A DNA stretch of 64,000 bases from Acetivibrio saccincola (GTDB lineage: Bacteria; Bacillota; Clostridia; Acetivibrionales; Acetivibrionaceae). Below, piece after piece: positions 1,030 through 61,419 of this stretch. Under the pieces are notes generated by a model. The model was not told the origin of the DNA and searched no databases. It saw only the letters and a program-made list of their open reading frames with translations. Numbering within the stretch: the stretch's first letter is position 1; every line of letters starts with the position of its first letter. Position numbers and translations under genes: made by a program. The stretch is from assembly GCF_002844395.1 (NCBI RefSeq), contig NZ_CP025197.1, positions 1,178,001-1,242,000 on the forward strand, written 5' to 3'.

Positions 1030-3879
1030 ATGGTAAGAGATAAAATTTTTATAAAAGGTGCAAGAGAACACAATCTGAAAGATATAGATGTTGAAATACC
1101 AAGGGACAAACTGGTTGTAATTACAGGGGTAAGTGGTTCAGGCAAGTCGTCTCTTGCCTTTGATACCATTTATGCTGAAGGTCAGAGGCGTTATATTGAG
1201 TCCCTGTCATCCTATGCAAGGCAATTTTTGGGACAGATGGAAAAGCCGGATGTGGATTATATAGACGGGCTGTCCCCGGCAATATCCATAGACCAGAAGA
1301 CCACCAGCAGAAATCCCAGGTCCACCGTTGGAACGGTGACGGAAATACACGACTATTTAAGGCTTTTATATGCACGGATAGGTGTACCCCATTGCCCTTC
1401 CTGCGGAAAGGAAATTTCACAGCAGACTTTAGATCAGATGGTTGACAGCATTATGCAGCTGGAGGAAGGGACAAGGATACAGCTTTTAGCCCCTGTGGTA
1501 AGGGGAAGAAAGGGAGAGTACAAAAAGCTTTTAGATGACATAAAAAAATCCGGATATGTAAGGGTCAGGATAGACAATGAAGTGATGGATGTAAATGAAC
1601 CCATTGAGCTGGAAAAAAATAAAAAACACAATATTGAAATTGTGGTGGACAGGATTATAGTCAAACCTAATATACAAAAAAGACTTGCAGACTCAATTGA
1701 AACTGTATTGAAGTTAAGTGACGGGGTACTTATTGTTGATGTAATCGGAAAAGAAGAAATTTTATTTAGTCAAAATTTTGCATGTACAGACTGTGGAATC
1801 AGCATGGAGGAGTTAACGCCAAGGATGTTTTCTTTCAACAACCCTTACGGGGCTTGTCCCAGCTGTACAGGACTCGGCTCTTTACTGAAGGTTGACCCGG
1901 ATTTGGTTATACCAAATAAAAAGCTGTCTTTAAAAGAAGGGGCAATTGCAGTTGCCGGATGGAATTTAGCTAAGGATGACAGCTATGCAAGTATGTATAT
2001 GAATGCTTTGGCAAATCATTATAACTTTAGCCTTTCCACCCCTGTTGAAGACTTGCCTGAACATATTTTGGACGTAATCCTCTATGGAACAAAAGGTGAA
2101 AAGGTATTGGCAGAATATAACGGAAAGTATGGGGATGGAACTTTCATGACCTCTTTTGAGGGAATAGTAAACAGTGTGGAGAGGCGGTATAATGAGACAC
2201 AAAAGGAAGAAATGAAGCAGTATTATGAACAGTTTATGAGTGAGAATTTGTGTTCAGAGTGTAATGGTGCCAGATTGAAAAAAGAGGTTCTTGCAGTAAC
2301 GGTGGGCGGGAAAAATATTCATGAGGTCAGCTGTATGTCTGTGGGAGATGCAAAGCAATTTTTTAAGGATATAAATTTATCTGAAAGGGACAGGCTGATA
2401 GCCCGCCAGATATTGAAGGAAATAAATGAAAGATTGGGATTTTTGGTGGATGTAGGTTTAGATTATCTTACATTGTCAAGAGCTGCCGGCACACTTTCAG
2501 GGGGAGAAGCTCAGAGAATAAGGCTTGCTACCCAGATAGGTTCAGGTCTTATGGGAGTCTTGTATATTTTAGATGAACCTAGTATAGGACTTCACCAGAG
2601 GGATAATGAAAAGCTTTTGAGAACTCTTAAAAAGATGAGGGATTTGGGAAACACCCTTATTGTGGTTGAACATGATGAAGATACAATGTATGCAGCGGAC
2701 TATATTATAGACTTAGGCCCGGGTGCGGGTATCCACGGCGGGGAAATTGTTGCAAAGGGAACTGTGGAAGAAATAAAGCAGAATCCAAAATCCATTACAG
2801 GACAGTATCTAAGCGGTAAAAAGTCCATTGATATTCCCAAAAAGAGAAGGGAGCCAAATGGAAAGTGGCTTAAAGTAGTTGGAGCCAGGGAGAATAATTT
2901 AAAAAATATAGATGTAAGTTTTCCTTTAGGGGTGCTTACTTGTGTAACAGGAGTTTCTGGCTCAGGAAAGAGTTCCCTTGTAAACGAAATTTTGTACAAA
3001 AGGTTAGCCAGTCAGTTAAACAGGGCAAGAACTAAAGCAGGTGACCATGACGATATTATAGGCATTGAACATCTTGACAAAGTAATAGATATAGACCAGT
3101 CCCCTATAGGCAGGACACCTAGATCCAATCCCGGAACTTATACGGGTGTATTTGATATTATACGTGAACTTTTTGCAGAAACCACTGAGTCCAAAACCAG
3201 AGGGTACAAAGCAGGACGCTTTAGTTTTAATGTCAGGGGCGGACGGTGCGAAGCATGCAGGGGGGACGGTATAATTAAAATAGAGATGCATTTTTTACCG
3301 GATATTTATGTGCCATGTGAAGTGTGTAAAGGAAAGAGGTATAACAGGGAGACTCTTGAAGTAAGGTACAAGGGTAAGAATATTGCAGAGATTCTTGATA
3401 TGACTGTTGAAGATGCACTGGAGTTTTTTAAAAACATTCCTAAGATACAGAGAAAGCTGCAGACACTGTATGATGTGGGCTTGGGATATATAAAGCTGGG
3501 ACAGCCTTCAACAACCCTTTCAGGGGGGGAAGCCCAGAGAGTTAAACTTGCCACTGAGCTTTCTAAGAGAAGCACAGGCAGGACAATGTATATACTAGAT
3601 GAGCCCACCACAGGACTTCACACAGCAGATGTCCACAGGCTTACAGATATTCTCCAAAGGCTGGTGGAGGCAGGCAATACAGTGGTGGTAATTGAACACA
3701 ATTTGGATGTTATTAAGATAGCGGATTATATTATAGATTTAGGGCCTGAAGGGGGAAGCAACGGAGGATATATTGTTGCCCAGGGGACACCTGAAGAAAT
3801 TATAAGAGTTGAAAATTCCCATACCGGAAGATTTCTTAAAAGAATTTTAAGTCCTGTTCCTAAGCTTAAAGTGCTGTAA
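1030..3879 (+). CDS. uvrA: UvrABC excinuclease subunit A
   Basis: UvrA is the DNA-damage sensor and loading factor for UvrB. At 949 residues it has the normal family length. It has two ABC ATPase modules, with Walker A motifs of the form GVSGSGKSS near residues 33-41 and again in the second half, and two LSGGEAQR signatures. Cys-x2-Cys pairs match the family zinc modules (CPSCG, CTDCG/CPSCTG and [15 protein letters not shown]). The ATG start is preceded by a modest AAGGTG ribosome site. The gene follows uvrB, a common arrangement in Firmicutes. The frame is intact. Confidence 0.98.
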
Positions 3880-5262: not shown

Positions 5263-6663
5263 ATGCAGATGAAAGCTACTAGTATAAAAAGCCTGTATAG
5301 GGAAACAAAAAAATATATAGACAGTAATATTGTTGTTGCCGGCTGGGTAAGGACAATAAGAGATTCTAAAGCCTTTGGGTTTATTGAATTAAATGACGGG
5401 ACTTTTTTTAAGAACCTGCAAGTGGTTTTTGAAGATGAAAAAATAGATAATTTCAAAGAAATAGCAAAACTTCCCGTTGGTTCAGCAATAATAGTACATG
5501 GGAAGCTGGTTGAAACACCCGGGGCAAAGCAGCCATTTGAAATAAAAGCAGACAAGATAGAAATTGAAGGGCTGTCACAGCCGGATTACCCACTTCAGAA
5601 AAAAAGGCACTCATTTGAGTTTTTAAGGACAATTGCACATTTAAGACCCAGGACAAACACCTTTTCAGCTGTGTTTAGAATAAGGTCCCTTGCTGCTTAT
5701 GCAATACATAAGTTTTTCCAGGACAGGGGTTTTGTATATGTGCACACACCAATAATTACGGGAAGCGATGCGGAAGGTGCCGGCAAAATGTTCAGAGTTA
5801 CAACTTTAGACTTAGACAATGTACCAAGACAGGAAGACGGCAGTATAGACTATTCAGAAGATTTCTTTGGAAGAGAGACAAATTTAACAGTCAGCGGACA
5901 ATTAGAAGGCGAAACATATGCTATGGCATTTAGAAATATATACACTTTCGGGCCTACTTTCAGAGCCGAAAACTCTAATACTCCAAGGCATGCCGCAGAG
6001 TTTTGGATGGTAGAACCGGAGATGGCTTTTGCAGATCTTAACGACAATATGGAAGTTGCTGAGGATATGTTAAAGTATATAATAAAATACTGCATGGAGA
6101 ATGCCCCGGAAGAAATGGAGTTTTTCAATAACTTCGTAGACAAAGGACTGTTTGACAGATTAAACAATGTGGTAAACTCTGATTTTGTCAGAATAACTTA
6201 TACAGAGGCAATTGATATTCTGCTGGAATCTAAAGAAAAATTTGAATATCCTGTTAAGTGGGGGTGTGACCTTCAAACAGAGCATGAAAGGTATTTGACT
6301 GAAAAAGTGTTTAAAAAACCGGTATTTGTAACTGATTATCCTAAAGATATAAAGGCATTTTATATGAAGCTGAATGATGACAACAAGACTGTAGCAGCAA
6401 TGGACCTCCTTGTACCCGGTGTGGGTGAGATTATAGGGGGAAGCCAGAGGGAAGACAGGGTTGAAGTTTTACAGCAGCGTATGAAGGAGTTAAATCTTAA
6501 AGAAGAGGAATACTGGTGGTATGTAGACCTTAGAAAATACGGCGGAACAAGGCATGCAGGTTTTGGCCTTGGCTTTGAAAGGGCAATAATGTACATTACA
6601 GGTATGACAAATATCCGAGATGTAATACCTTTCCCAAGGACAGTAAATAATGCTGAGTTCTAG
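5263..6663 (+). CDS. asnS: Asparaginyl-tRNA synthetase
   Basis: This class II aminoacyl-tRNA synthetase attaches asparagine to tRNA-Asn. The 466 residues are the full length. The N-terminal OB-fold anticodon-binding domain (about residues 20-105, [12 protein letters not shown]) is followed by the catalytic core. Motif 2 is in [16 protein letters not shown], where the Asn-type loop separates AsnRS from AspRS, and motif 3 is [12 protein letters not shown] near the end. An AAAGGAG ribosome site precedes the ATG; a second ATG two codons later is also possible. It lies between asnA and an ABC gene pair with short gaps. Confidence 0.97.
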
Positions 6664-6696
6664 TTTTCATAGGGGTAAATTTTTACGGGGTTAAAT

Positions 6697-7323
6697 ATGT
6701 TTAAATTAATTAATGTTGTCTACAAGAATATTTTGCATATAGAACGGTTGGAAATTCCAAAAAATAAAGTTACATGTATAGTTGGGGAAAGCGGGAGTGG
6801 AAAATCCACTCTTCTGTGCCTTCTTAATAAGCTGATAAGCTGTGACAGAGGGGAAATATATTATAATGATTTGCTTATAGATGATATAGATTCTGTAGAA
6901 CTTAGGCGGAAGGTGGTTATGCTTCCCCAACAGCCGGTTGTTTTTCCGGGGAGTATAAAGAAAAATTTACTTATAGGGCTTAAGTTTTCAGGAAAACCTG
7001 AAGAGAAGGATGATAAATTAATCAAAGTTTTAGAAATGGTTTCCCTAAAAAAGAAGCTTGATGACGATGCAGAAAAGCTTTCCGGCGGGGAAAAGCAGAG
7101 GATGGCCCTTGGAAGGGTAATTTTAATGAAACCGGAGGTATTTTTACTTGATGAACCATCTTCTGCATTAGATGATAAAACAGAAGAGGTGGTAATTGAA
7201 AGGGTGGTAAAGCATATAAAAGCAGAAAATAAAACCCTTGTCATGGTTACCCACTCTAAAAAGATAGCTTTAGATTATTCTGACAACATTGTAGAGATAA
7301 AAGGGGGGAGGGTCATAAAATAA
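6697..7323 (+). CDS. fetA: ABC transporter ATPase, FetA/YbbL type
   Basis: This is a short (208 residues) ABC ATPase. Walker A is GESGSGKST (about residues 30-38), the Q-loop is LPQQP, the signature is LSGGEKQR and Walker B is VFLLDEPSSALD. The partner permease starts one base after this gene ends and belongs to the FetB family, which makes this the FetA subunit. In E. coli the FetAB pair has been linked to iron export and oxidative-stress tolerance. That substrate has not been shown here and is inferred from family only. Confidence 0.85.
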   Translation: MFKLINVVYKNILHIERLEIPKNKVTCIVGESGSGKSTLLCLLNKLISCDRGEIYYNDLLIDDIDSVELRRKVVMLPQQPVVFPGSIKKNLLIGLKFSGKPEEKDDKLIKVLEMVSLKKKLDDDAEKLSGGEKQRMALGRVILMKPEVFLLDEPSSALDDKTEEVVIERVVKHIKAENKTLVMVTHSKKIALDYSDNIVEIKGGRVIK

Positions 7324-8221: not shown

Positions 8222-9487
8222 TTAATTTACTTTGCATTTTACCCCGTTAAGTTCAAAATCATCAGGTGTTCTGTTTCTACCGGAATACCCCATGTTAAAT
8301 CCAAAGCTTACTTCTCCTTTTGCAGGAATTTCACCGGTGCCTAATATTGACGAACCTGTTACTTTAACTGAATTACCCTTTTGTTCAAGTTGTGCCTGCC
8401 AGAGATCATTAATTTTTTGGTTGTCAGGGAAACTCCAAGTTAGTGTCCAATTTTTTATAGGCTCTGAAGTATTGTTTTTAATAGTAACCATGACAATTGC
8501 ACCATTTCCCCAATCGCCTTTTATATCGTATGTTACAATGTAATCCCCGTATTTTGGAGGCTCCACAGGCTTAGTGGTAGGTTCTGTAGTAGGTGAAGTT
8601 TTTGGTGTGTTCTTAGGAGTGGTGGTAGGTTTAGGAGTAGGAGTAATAACAGGTTTTGTAGTATTTTTAGGAGTGGTGGTAGGCTTTGGAGTAGGAGTAA
8701 TAACAGGTTTTGTAGTATTTTTAGGAGTAGCAGTAGGTTTTGAAGTAGGAGTAATAACAGGTTTTGTAGTATTTTTAGGTGTGGAAGAAGGCTTTGAAGT
8801 AGGTGTAATAACGGCTCTTGAAGTATTTTTAGGAGTGGTGGTAGGTTTTGAAGAAGGAGTAGCAGCAGGTTTTGTAGTGTTTTTAGGAGTGGCGGAAGGC
8901 TTTGAAGAAGGAGTAGTAGCAGGTTTTGTAGTATTTTTAGGATTGGTTGATGGATTTGAAGTAGAGGTAGCAGCAGGTTTTGTAGTGTTTTTAGGACTGG
9001 TAGAAGGACTTGTAGTAGTGGTTGGAGTAGAGTCAGGTTTTGAAGAAGGCTGCGTAGTTACAGGTGTTGAAGTATTTTCTTCCTTGTCATGAGTTTCTTC
9101 AGAGTCTGTATGTTCTATGTCTGGAACATTTGTGTCAAAATCATCCGAGTCTGAATTATCTTCAATATTATCTTCAAAATCATCTTTAATGTCATCAGTT
9201 GTATTATTTGACTGTCCGGGTGGGGCTGTGACATCATCAGAGACTGTTTCACCGGTGTTTTGGTTATCTGTGCCTGGTGATTTAGGCAGTTCATTATTAG
9301 CATCAACAATTAACTTGTTACCTGATGAATCATTATTAGAAACGTTTTTGGCAGAATTATTCTTTTCATTATTAATTGAAAAAGATACTATAAAAGAAGT
9401 AACTGTAATTAATATAATTGTAAAAGCAAAAATAATTTTCTTCCTAAACTTAACATTGTACAGTAATTTTTTCATAACAACTCTCAT
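8222..9487 (-). CDS. Membrane-anchored or secreted protein with Thr/Pro repeat linker and C-terminal CBM2
   Basis: This 421-residue protein has a basic N-terminus and one hydrophobic segment (about residues 17-37), probably an uncleaved anchor or signal peptide. An acidic Asp/Glu/Asn/Ser-rich stretch (to about 140) and a long Thr/Pro/Lys linker (about 140-312) with seven 18-residue repeats follow. The C-terminal 109 residues look like a family-2 carbohydrate-binding module, with IKNWTLTWSF, a Trp in NDLWQA, and the closing GEVSFGFNMGYSG. No catalytic domain is present. The anti-sigma (RsgI) N-domain that carries CBMs in related cellulolytic clostridia is also absent. It may hold the cell to cellulose or display a binding module. 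The start is uncertain: ATG 9475, preceded by GAGAG, is as likely as ATG 9487. Confidence 0.8.
   Translation of the reverse strand: MRVVMKKLLYNVKFRKKIIFAFTIILITVTSFIVSFSINNEKNNSAKNVSNNDSSGNKLIVDANNELPKSPGTDNQNTGETVSDDVTAPPGQSNNTTDDIKDDFEDNIEDNSDSDDFDTNVPDIEHTDSEETHDKEENTSTPVTTQPSSKPDSTPTTTTSPSTSPKNTTKPAATSTSNPSTNPKNTTKPATTPSSKPSATPKNTTKPAATPSSKPTTTPKNTSRAVITPTSKPSSTPKNTTKPVITPTSKPTATPKNTTKPVITPTPKPTTTPKNTTKPVITPTPKPTTTPKNTPKTSPTTEPTTKPVEPPKYGDYIVTYDIKGDWGNGAIVMVTIKNNTSEPIKNWTLTWSFPDNQKINDLWQAQLEQKGNSVKVTGSSILGTGEIPAKGEVSFGFNMGYSGRNRTPDDFELNGVKCKVN
8618..8995 (-). repeat. Seven 54-bp direct repeats inside the CBM2 gene
   Basis: Each unit encodes 18 residues beginning PKNTTKP and continuing with a Thr/Ser/Pro/Lys half such as TPTSKPTAT. 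Seven full units cover protein residues 165-290, and a partial eighth unit follows. The last two full units are identical in protein sequence, pointing to recent duplication or gene conversion. Copy number could vary between strains. Confidence 0.85.
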
Positions 9488-45519: not shown

Positions 45520-45852
45520 AAATCATTCTATAACGTATTCCTGTTTGTGTCAATGGTAAAAATCATTATGATAGCGTCAATTTATTGTAGGAAAAAGAAA
45601 AGTAGATGGCATCCCATTTTTTATTTGTGCAACTATTTCAAATAACGGTCTCTTAGTAACGAAAGTGTTTTACATCATTTTGAGCCTTATTTTCTTTTAT
45701 AATTCCTCTAACTTATTGTCTATTATACCATATAACTCTTTCTTTCTATAAAGAATTCATTTTACTCAATACTTGTGACAAATTAGTACGTTTTGTTATC
45801 TATGTTCCTTCACATTTTAACGCTACTTTTAAAAGAAAAAAGTATTTCTATT

Positions 45853-45936
45853 GTACCATTTTCCATTTTGTCAAGGCTAAAACAAGCGGGCAAAGCCCGG
45901 CCTTGACAAGTAGTAGGACTTCGCGGGTCATGGTAC
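45853..45936. ncRNA. Nested hairpin in the non-coding tail of insertion-sequence copy 1
   Basis: Three nested stems share one axis: GTACCAT (45853-45859) with ATGGTAC (about 45930-45936), TTGTCAAGGC (45868-45877) with GCCTTGACAA (45900-45909), and CGGGC (45887-45891) with GCCCG around the loop AAA. It is much more GC-rich than its surroundings. It lies about 140 bases beyond the transposase stop and is also present in copy 2. It could act in the RNA (terminator, protection from outside transcription) or as a transposase-binding structure. Calling it an RNA is inference. Confidence 0.4.
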
Positions 45937-46077
45937 TAAAGTTTTGCTTTTTTCTTTTCTTTTTCTTTTTTTATGTTTTTTCTTTTTCTTTGTCTTTTTT
46001 CCAGATATGTATAATTCCTATTGGATAGGCTTACTTGTAAACTTTCCCGTAATTTTTGCTTTATTATTACCTCATCC

Positions 46078-47529
46078 CTATCCGCATATACCTATAATAC
46101 GCCTTAATTCTTTATATAAACCAGCTTTACACCCCTTATGAATACCAGTTAAATTACTATTCCATACACTCTCATACCTGTTTGATGACTTCTTTAATTC
46201 CTTAATTAATTTTTCCTGAATTTCTTGCCTACTAGCTGCTAACTTTTTTTGTTTTTGTGCCATAACTATGTCATATACCTTACCGCCATTCTTCTTGTAT
46301 ATTATTAGCTTTGACATCTTTTCTACACCTTTTCTCGACCAGCCTTTAGGTCTTGAACTTAAACGGGATGAAAATACATGACTCACATGACCTTCAGCAC
46401 TACAACCCACTATTCCTCTGTTTGACCTTATTTCTATACCATCCCAATTATTTAAAATATATCGCTTTGCATTTTTTATAGCCTTTATTTTATTTTCATT
46501 ATCGCCTGTCTTTTCAATTATCTTTTTAAAAACCTTTGTTAGCATTTTTTTATCAGATAAATTCAAAGCCTCCTGTAAATCTTGGCTTATTGCTTCATCA
46601 TTTAAATGTGTGGTCGCAACTCTTACGTATTTTTGAAGATGGTATCTATCAAGTACAAATTTACTTTTTGAAAGACAGTTAACTCCTTGCCTTATCCATG
46701 ACGCCCCATCTCCTGATATATACACCGTCTCTAAAAAATCAACGTCATATTGTTTATATATGTATTCCGATACTTCAAGCCACAAATTTTCTGAATTATT
46801 ATACACTCCCCCAAAATATCGAACATTCTTTAATACTTTTCTCTTCTTATTACTTTTTTCAAAGTCAATTCCCTCATGCACATATACAAGTTTTGGCATA
46901 ATTGTATTTCTCTTGCCCTTCTCATTCTGTCTCAATATACTTTTTTGTTGTAATGCTACATGGTCCTCATCGGCCTCAACATACAATATTTTTACTTCTC
47001 TCTTTTTATCTACTTTTATTTCAGGCTCAACTATTTCAATATTATGTATTTTATTCATCACTGCTTGTTTGCTGATTTCATCAATATATGTCGCCTTTTC
47101 TCCTGCCTTTCTGTAGCTGCTGTCAGCTGCTTCATCTATTGCATTAATTACAACATCGGCACTTACTCTGTCATGTGGTTCTACACCTACAATCCTGTCG
47201 ACTAGGTGTTGTCTATTACCATTTTCCTTATGCTTAAAATATGTCCTGTTATAACTTAGTGTTCCAAATGTCGTTAAAATAGCTGTTTTATCTTTTCTTA
47301 TAATTTCCCAATACTGTTTCCTTATTTCACAGTTACGGAAATATTCATCCATATCTTCAAGCACTTCTTTAAGTATATCGCGTCCAAGTTTAAATAAATC
47401 TTCTTTTAGACCAAGAACAAGATCAGCTAAGTCTTTTCCTTCTTCAATAAAATTTTTTATCTTTTTTTCAATTCTTTTTACCCCAAATTCATTAAAATGT
47501 TGTATACTATTATACATAGAAGATGTCAT
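46078..47529 (-). CDS. ISLre2/UPF0236-family transposase, copy 1
   Basis: This 483-residue transposase appears intact. An N-terminal helical region and the Cys-poor DNA-binding part lead to the catalytic core with VYISGDGASWIRQG (first acidic residue), LDRYHLQKYVRV and the family block SAEGHVSHVFSSRLSSRPKGWS. It starts near the right end of its element, after GGATGACATC. It differs from copy 2 at ten residues by direct comparison, including Cys instead of Trp after GVN, so both are recent and may be active. Confidence 0.92.
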   Translation of the reverse strand: MTSSMYNSIQHFNEFGVKRIEKKIKNFIEEGKDLADLVLGLKEDLFKLGRDILKEVLEDMDEYFRNCEIRKQYWEIIRKDKTAILTTFGTLSYNRTYFKHKENGNRQHLVDRIVGVEPHDRVSADVVINAIDEAADSSYRKAGEKATYIDEISKQAVMNKIHNIEIVEPEIKVDKKREVKILYVEADEDHVALQQKSILRQNEKGKRNTIMPKLVYVHEGIDFEKSNKKRKVLKNVRYFGGVYNNSENLWLEVSEYIYKQYDVDFLETVYISGDGASWIRQGVNCLSKSKFVLDRYHLQKYVRVATTHLNDEAISQDLQEALNLSDKKMLTKVFKKIIEKTGDNENKIKAIKNAKRYILNNWDGIEIRSNRGIVGCSAEGHVSHVFSSRLSSRPKGWSRKGVEKMSKLIIYKKNGGKVYDIVMAQKQKKLAASRQEIQEKLIKELKKSSNRYESVWNSNLTGIHKGCKAGLYKELRRIIGICG

Positions 47530-47645
47530 CCTTTCTATTTATTATTTTTGCTTAATTAATATCTTAACAGGATGTCATCTTCTTTTCAATTATATATGGT
47601 ATTTTATGTCTCATTCCCTACAATAACTTTACGCTAACATCATTA

Positions 47646-61335: not shown

Positions 61336-61419
61336 GTACCATTTTCCATTTTGTCAAGGCTAAAACAAGCGGGCAAAGCCCGGCCTTGACAAGTAGTAGG
61401 GCTCCGCGGGTCATGGTAC
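61336..61419. ncRNA. Nested hairpin in the non-coding tail of insertion-sequence copy 2
   Basis: The same nested stems as in copy 1 are present (GTACCAT/ATGGTAC, TTGTCAAGGC/GCCTTGACAA, CGGGC/GCCCG). The differences between copies near here (GACTTCG against GCTCCG, about 61400) fall outside the paired arms. Keeping the stems in both copies fits a selected structure, but the copies are too similar for this to be strong evidence. Confidence 0.4.

Follow-up and report, generated by a model that had tools for sequence, protein, structure and literature searches.

Why should an insertion sequence with a single gene carry some 500 bases of non-coding DNA with an elaborate hairpin inside? The question is raised by the window, i.e. 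the whole 64,000-nucleotide stretch of Acetivibrio saccincola DNA analysed here, in which two copies of such an element are found. An earlier note on this DNA described a non-coding tail kept in both copies and a three-level nested stem far richer in GC than its surroundings, and suggested that the tail acts as an RNA, an anti-transcription shield or a transposase site. The features concerned are as follows, in window coordinates.

45570-47638, minus strand: complete ISLre2-family insertion sequence, 2069 bp, delimited by copy comparison and flanks, with the 8-bp repeat ATAATGAT at both sides
46078-47529, minus strand: ISLre2 transposase gene, 483 aa (NF033529 289.8 bits, PF06782 278.6 bits)
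45570-46077, minus strand: non-coding tail, 508 nt, from ORF content and copy comparison
45831-45958, minus strand: whole nested hairpin with its outermost 12-bp A/T stem (arms 45947-45958 and 45831-45842), from the DNA fold
45853-45936, minus strand: middle 7-bp stem GTACCAT/ATGGTAC (arms 45930-45936 and 45853-45859)
45900-45909 with 45868-45877, minus strand: 10-bp stem TTGTCAAGGC
45870-45907, minus strand: conserved core, consisting of GTCAAGGC, CGGGC-TTT-GCCCG, the 9-nt bulge CTTGTTTTA and GCCTTGAC, from covariance model R1
within 45887-45899, minus strand: inner stem CGGGC/GCCCG
45878-45886, minus strand: 9-nt bulge, on the 3' side beside TTGAC as elsewhere in the hairpin family
45869-45874, minus strand: TTGACA, putative -35 lying in the stem, from its position and the near-invariance of TTGAC in 60 members
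45850-45855, minus strand: TACAAT, putative -10 at an atypical spacer of 13 (the family peaks at 17-18), bordering a 10x10 internal loop
61053-63097: second window copy of the element, with the same core by model R1 at 61353-61390, minus strand

The element belongs to the ISLre2 family, as its transposase scores well above the NF033529 cut-off of 200 bits and it possesses terminal inverted repeats (TIRs), imperfect in the window element, and a target duplication; the transposase, the TIRs and the copy-out-paste-in assignment are common to ISLre2 insertion sequences. The genome carrying the window (3.6 Mb, single contig) contains 30 full-length copies of 2045-2074 bp, 20 of which have an exact direct repeat of 7-9 bp at their ends, and the tail is present in all 30; the conservation claimed for the two window copies thus extends to the whole genome. 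The only open reading frames in the tail are portions of two 65-aa chance ORFs from the opposite strand. Eight or nine of the 30 copies share a block of differences at element positions 1849-2014, towards the end of the tail; it looks as though two subtypes had swapped tails. At three places (L041, L042 and L032) the last ~176 nt of the tail occur alone, fused to another repeated sequence. A separate repeat of the window, at 8548-9072, appears as seven 201-nt copies in register at a spacing of 54 nt, i.e. a 54-bp tandem repeat.

The three stems described in the earlier note, GTACCAT, the 10-bp stem and CGGGC with their complements, are all present as described, and the hairpin is indeed richer in GC than its surroundings (core 58%, 45850-45940 46%, remaining tail 27%). 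The nesting goes one level further, as folding of the tail hairpin as single-stranded DNA yields four levels, the fourth being the outermost 12-bp stem, which had been missed and which also covers some of the T-rich run that follows the hairpin. The putative -35 hexamer is paired in this predicted fold. The sequence folds better than most of its dinucleotide shuffles: the RNA fold of 45840-45950 gives z -2.9 on the minus and -3.7 on the plus strand, and the whole tail folded as DNA gives z -3.0. Across 45831-45958 only positions 45921 and 45918 vary in more than one of the 30 copies, both outside the four main stems; the other variation in the hairpin is confined to single copies, chiefly L027, which has a shortened hairpin.

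The genome has 31 places with the pattern of the 10-bp stem and none with a reversed control pattern, and model R1 finds 34 places there: 31 of the ISLre2 type, one gene-less element and two of the IS6 family. The first lead beyond the insertion sequence was a match ~145 nt past one of its copies, where an inverted-repeat element without genes, with GGTAGTGTCAAAAG at its ends, encloses the same core; a related genome contains a comparable core-bearing element, also gene-less. Judged from sequence, the hairpin core is therefore not private to the window insertion sequence. In L091 (~190-464) and L096, the gene-less element with GGTAGTGTCAAAAG ends has a long nested inverted repeat around the core, and a separate cluster of at least six places (L194 inspected) looks like a gene-less element with GGTAGTGTAAAGT-type ends. 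The two IS6-family places, L316 (G000:C1:1296007-1296045) and L317 (G000:C1:1270490-1270528), represent a two-copy element of the same genome with its own version of the hairpin, in which a GGG/CCC stem is compensated.

The family core reads GTCAAGNN, a variable inner stem-loop, the bulge TTCATTTTA and N'N'CTTGAC, or, on the sense strand, GTCAAGGC, an inner stem-loop beginning with CG and ending with CG, TTCATTTYA and GCCTTGAC. A degenerate pattern of this core matched at least 120 stretches in the species-level genome collection, where our own arithmetic gives one or two by chance, and six stretches in viral contigs. When the 38/39-nt core was compared with sequence collections, only partial matches in three records were obtained for phages, and at least 80% of the core was covered in 11 of 14 plasmid records. 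The covariance model detected the core in 43 of 391 genomes of the class at E<=0.01, the window's own genome included, and recovered members out of the pattern's reach, some with an altered but still pairing outer stem (GTCAAGGG/CCCTTGAC, GGT/ACC, GGA/TCC, GCC/GGC and GAG/CTC). The window core scores 53.3 bits (E 6e-10) against this model, in whose alignment it is itself contained. The bare pattern GTCAAGGCN{12,40}GCCTTGAC was found in 23 of the 391 genomes, against 10 for the reversed control (hand count), and most of the extra matches were set aside, together with the cloverleaf palindromes of genus g60 (L127, L128 and L129); these are large palindromes with inner hairpins closed by a GTCAAGGC/GCCTTGAC stem and are perhaps a separate repeat family. 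A looser viral scan gave 26 stretches that are largely coding DNA (GTC AAG GCC, i.e. Val-Lys-Ala), and its new loci were left unused. Five of 47 distinct cores (L182, L206, L208, L241 and L253) were dropped as chance matches; L354, the same prophage sequence as the dropped L253, was kept among the 60 members used below. L253 and L354 are a phage contig and a chromosome with a similar hairpin between genes of 274 and 113 aa, taken by eye for a tailed prophage. A solo hairpin in genome G005 is a decayed copy and was set aside; R1 does not find it, and its flanking genes look by eye like recA and murJ.

The stems of the core covary strongly across many unrelated mobile elements. In a first set of 25 cores, chosen by hand from the 42 remaining, 22 cells were double-changed against 8.6±1.7 in shuffles; only pairs 11-13 provide free evidence there, because the pattern allowed no variation in the outer stem or the CG/CG pairs, and these three pairs stay paired through double changes. 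Among 57 distinct sequences, in an alignment fitted to the model, 97.5% of cells are paired and 86 are double-changed, against 26.0±3.4 in shuffles (reached in 0 of 500) and at most 21 for sliding partners. The test of compensatory changes proposed in the earlier note is thus strongly positive once the hairpin is followed outside the window insertion sequence, and a role for the tail, as suggested there, is upheld; the three specific roles named receive less support than a promoter active in single-stranded DNA, which we set out below.

The carriers of the core are diverse. The transposases lying upstream of the core or facing it were named by profile models, and are listed with the single-stranded DNA phages of three types in which the core is present.

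ISLre2: the window element and L358, with fragments in L119 and L120 (the L120 match lies below the NCBIfam cut-off)
IS256: L143, L160 and L356, and L360 by Pfam Transposase_mut
IS3: L152 and L352
IS6: L316, L328, L334, L341, L346 and L347
ISNCY: L336 and L342
Microvirus: L255, with Phage_F and a replication initiator, core on the coding strand
Inovirus: L256 (same sequence in L167), with an M13 protein I-like gene, core on the coding strand
Inovirus prophage: L185, with Zot-like and G2P-type Rep genes, core on the coding strand

The largest cluster of matches represents one mobile element, present at no fewer than 93 places among the 126 matches listed (few members inspected), which adjoins aadE in plasmid records. 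Mobilizable elements are further carriers of the core; L252 contains a piece of a Mob_Pre relaxase and a serine recombinase. In a Thiothrix plasmid the core and a Rep_3 initiator gene, ~350 bp apart, point in opposite directions. A site for the transposase is unlikely, because the core accompanies unrelated transposases and occurs in gene-less elements and in single-stranded DNA phages. In 16 of 18 cases, several of which are mutually related and one of which (L120) has a reading frame that enters the core, the core follows the transposase at its 3' side and shares its strand; the exceptions are the IS256 elements L356 and L360, with the core in the opposite orientation. The bias has p 5e-4, a value that refers to 15 of 16 cases and precedes the addition of L119 and L360. 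This tally omits L115, L117 and L125, where the transposases lie by weak or uncertain cores, and the far-side transposases of L126 (an IS701 fragment) and L247 (ISAs1). The core thus has one preferred orientation, in which its sense strand is also that of the transposase sense or of the phage coding sequence.

In most of the insertion sequences examined the core lies 13-170 nt past the transposase stop codon on the same strand, as would be expected of a structured RNA in the 3' UTR of the transposase mRNA, acting as a stabiliser, small RNA or regulator; GNRA-like loops and covariation would also fit RNA. We regard this explanation as unlikely, as gene-less elements and single-stranded DNA phages keep the core as well, no Rfam family is matched at gathering score in the window and 12 member loci apart from tRNA, and the one-strand arrangement of TTGAC and TAnnnT at 17/18 nt described below is not an RNA feature. 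At E<=5 Rfam added only low-scoring snoRNA, lncRNA and mitochondrial rRNA matches. The shield proposed in the earlier note, or a terminator, could draw on a T-rich stretch behind the middle stem on the plus strand, but an arm of the outer stem is itself part of this stretch. The hairpin is not an ordinary terminator, because no U-tract follows directly behind the core in the covariance-model members inspected, and the phage, gene-less and plasmid contexts would be left unexplained; we consider this explanation very improbable indeed.

For an analysis of the flank of the core, 171 rows with enough flank were dereplicated to 60 members, and the 3' flank lies outside the model. TTGAC in the 3' arm is near-invariant (T 59, T 59, G 57, A 59 and C 53 of 60). 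A -10 matrix peaks at spacers of 17 (z 5.8) and 18 (z 3.4), with a further peak at 12 (z 5.7) that we tentatively ascribe to the A/T-rich outer stem. TAnnnT at 17/18 nt occurs on the sense strand in 27 of 60 members and on the antisense strand in five (p 8e-6), despite the palindromic stem; a stricter set gives 15 against 4 of 38 (p 0.007), and TGnTA at spacer 17 is present in 18 of 60 members on the sense and one of 60 on the antisense strand. The predicted DNA pairing is 0.96-0.99 in TTGAC, 0.04-0.17 in the bulge and 0.63-0.85 in the spacer, and falls to 0.33-0.46 across the -10 after its first base. Among the strict 38, 23 inner loops are tri- or tetraloops, 19 of which read GNA or GNNA along the sense strand, and the mirror type is absent; GNA loops form very stable DNA mini-hairpins. 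The remaining 33 of the 60 members have no TAnnnT at 17/18, including a Brevibacillus/Paenibacillus IS256 group and the inovirus L167/L256. In the window copy and its nearest kin (L119, L126 and the IS3 element L152), the -10 candidate is found at a spacer of 13, in the loop between two stems, and one rationalisation is that this unpaired loop stretches the distance between -35 and -10.

A promoter in folded single-stranded DNA is favoured over a structured RNA because of the 17-18-nt spacing between -35 and -10; such a promoter would need both the covarying arms and the -10, whereas a plain duplex promoter would need no covarying arms and an RNA no -10. For the members with spacers of 17-18 nt, the -35, the extended -10 and their spacing would also be workable in duplex DNA, as an ordinary or cruciform-dependent outward promoter, which in an insertion sequence circle would be directed over the junction of the two ends towards the transposase; the promoters of the N4 virion RNA polymerase are a cruciform-dependent precedent. 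However, the covarying stems and the bulge upstream of the -35 would be left without a reason, and the spacer of the window copy is 13, so that a duplex promoter appears quite improbable.

Promoters and origins active in single-stranded DNA are already described for conjugative plasmids, ICEs and rolling-circle plasmids (PMC4595007, PMC9849209). According to excerpts of the latter, Frpo1 and Frpo2 are active in vivo, and Frpo2 of plasmid F is located upstream of ssb (PMC9849209). On the would-be template strand, the F region upstream of ssb reads CTGTCCTGGGC, a long inner stem and GTTCATTTACCCTGGACAG; a second F copy ~5 kb off reads GCATTTCACCCCTGGAC and has 85% identity over 327 aligned positions. 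By position, these two regions are taken to be Frpo2 and Frpo1, whose identity is given as 92% in the same excerpts (PMC9849209). Like the hairpin family, they form a stem-loop on one strand with an inner stem, a -35-like box in the 3' arm, and a 3'-side bulge (TTCATTTA or GCATTTCA) directly ahead of CCC(C)TGGAC, and they match the family in topology and in the side that carries the bulge. Unlike the hairpin family, Frpo drives genes of the leading region in the recipient, whereas in insertion sequences and phages the RNA would be antisense to the gene; the window copy is located in an insertion sequence, downstream of its gene, and not in a leading region. Local alignment of the TTCATTTTA-CCCTTGACA form to a 15.5-kb F stretch gave a score reached in 0 of 200 shuffles, with a query chosen after seeing F, and because of this choice the match is supportive, not independent proof. 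The score of the plain family consensus (the GCCTTGAC form) was reached in 22 of 200 shuffles, and model R1 did not recover Frpo, its best place scoring 2.5 bits and the motif itself about 0.

The sso of Gram-positive rolling-circle plasmids is described in excerpts of PMC4595007 as folding into a structure that RNA polymerase reads as a promoter, which yields a primer (PMC4595007). By these accounts, in the plasmids and in ICEBs1 folded single-stranded DNA acts as a promoter to prime the second strand, as we propose here. R1 at E<=10 found no match in pTA1060 6000-6900, pUB110, pC194 or the M13 stretch 5400-6100. Among the top-ranked matches in the open-access full-text literature we found no report of a single-strand promoter or sso inside an insertion sequence. 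A report on an insertion sequence that gives host range to an RCR plasmid was set aside, as its excerpts concern IS5 terminal repeats (PMC12016507).

The contexts of the family, i.e. single-stranded DNA phages, transfer elements and replicative insertion sequences, would suit a PriA-type site of primosome assembly, or a site for primase, equally, in place of a site for RNA polymerase. The window core even contains AAGCGG, which we take to be the E. coli n'-pas hexamer, but AAGCGG is not conserved across the hairpin family. The ssiA site of pAMbeta1 has the task that we propose for the hairpin and is described as needing PriA, and an identity with it was considered first and dropped, as the pAMbeta1 stretch downstream of rep/ori (2690-3250) showed no match. 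A primosome site would also leave the promoter spacing unexplained, and it has in our view little likelihood. In pAMbeta1, R1 gave only weak matches away from ssiA (14.4, 14.4 and 11.9 bits). Two identical hairpins of this plasmid (L283, 10233-10264 and 11087-11118), CAAGGG-CGAGCTTGCTCG-TTTATATA-CCCTTG, are family-like at 14.4 bits (E 0.21) and lie inside a longer direct repeat.

The hairpin is an accessory that is dispensable for ISLre2 transposition as such, because other multi-copy ISLre2 elements exist without the core. In a sample of the order, 23 of 58 genomes have an ISLre2 match, eight of them above the cut-off. Thirty further ISLre2 loci were inspected, several being fragments and none belonging to the window type, and the core was absent from all of them. 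The window genome also contains another kind of ISLre2 element of ~1.57 kb, nearly identical at the three of four places compared, and an ISLre2 element in another genome measures 1.78 kb (two copies compared); both therefore have much shorter non-coding parts than the window element. Of the two observations that the earlier note held to speak against its idea, relatives that transpose without the hairpin are thus indeed found, whereas a lack of covariation is not.

On the strength of the covarying arms, the promoter-like spacing and the carriers, we consider it probable that the hairpin is a cis-acting promoter in single-stranded DNA, of the Frpo/sso kind, carried by the insertion sequence as an accessory module. 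ISLre2, IS3 and IS256 are among the families described as copy-out-paste-in (PMC9333248); in copy-out, the joining of one strand yields a figure-eight, and the circle arises by replication (PMC7780238). We propose that whenever the sense strand becomes single-stranded, be it during copy-out of the insertion sequence, conjugative transfer of its carrier or as the viral strand of a phage, it would fold, and the folded arms would offer RNA polymerase a double-stranded -35 and spacer with the -10 already open. The polymerase would then transcribe the DNA 5' of the hairpin into a short RNA, which would serve as the primer of the complementary strand; in single-stranded DNA phages and transferred elements the same priming would convert the incoming strand. 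Priming is likelier than gene expression, because in insertion sequences and phages the RNA would run antisense to the gene next to it. It is conceivable, though we hold it with some doubt, that replicative DDE insertion sequence families have repeatedly gained one portable single-strand promoter that primes the second strand in copy-out, and that this module has been exchanged with single-stranded DNA phages, mobilizable elements and plasmids.

If true, this would provide a cis-acting replication signal for the copy-out pathway, and if an insertion sequence carries its own single-strand start signal, the second-strand step would become directly testable. One exchangeable DNA module would then join insertion sequences, gene-less elements, mobilizable elements and single-stranded DNA phages, and single-strand promoters, known from the leading regions of plasmids, would be extended to the transposons of Firmicutes.
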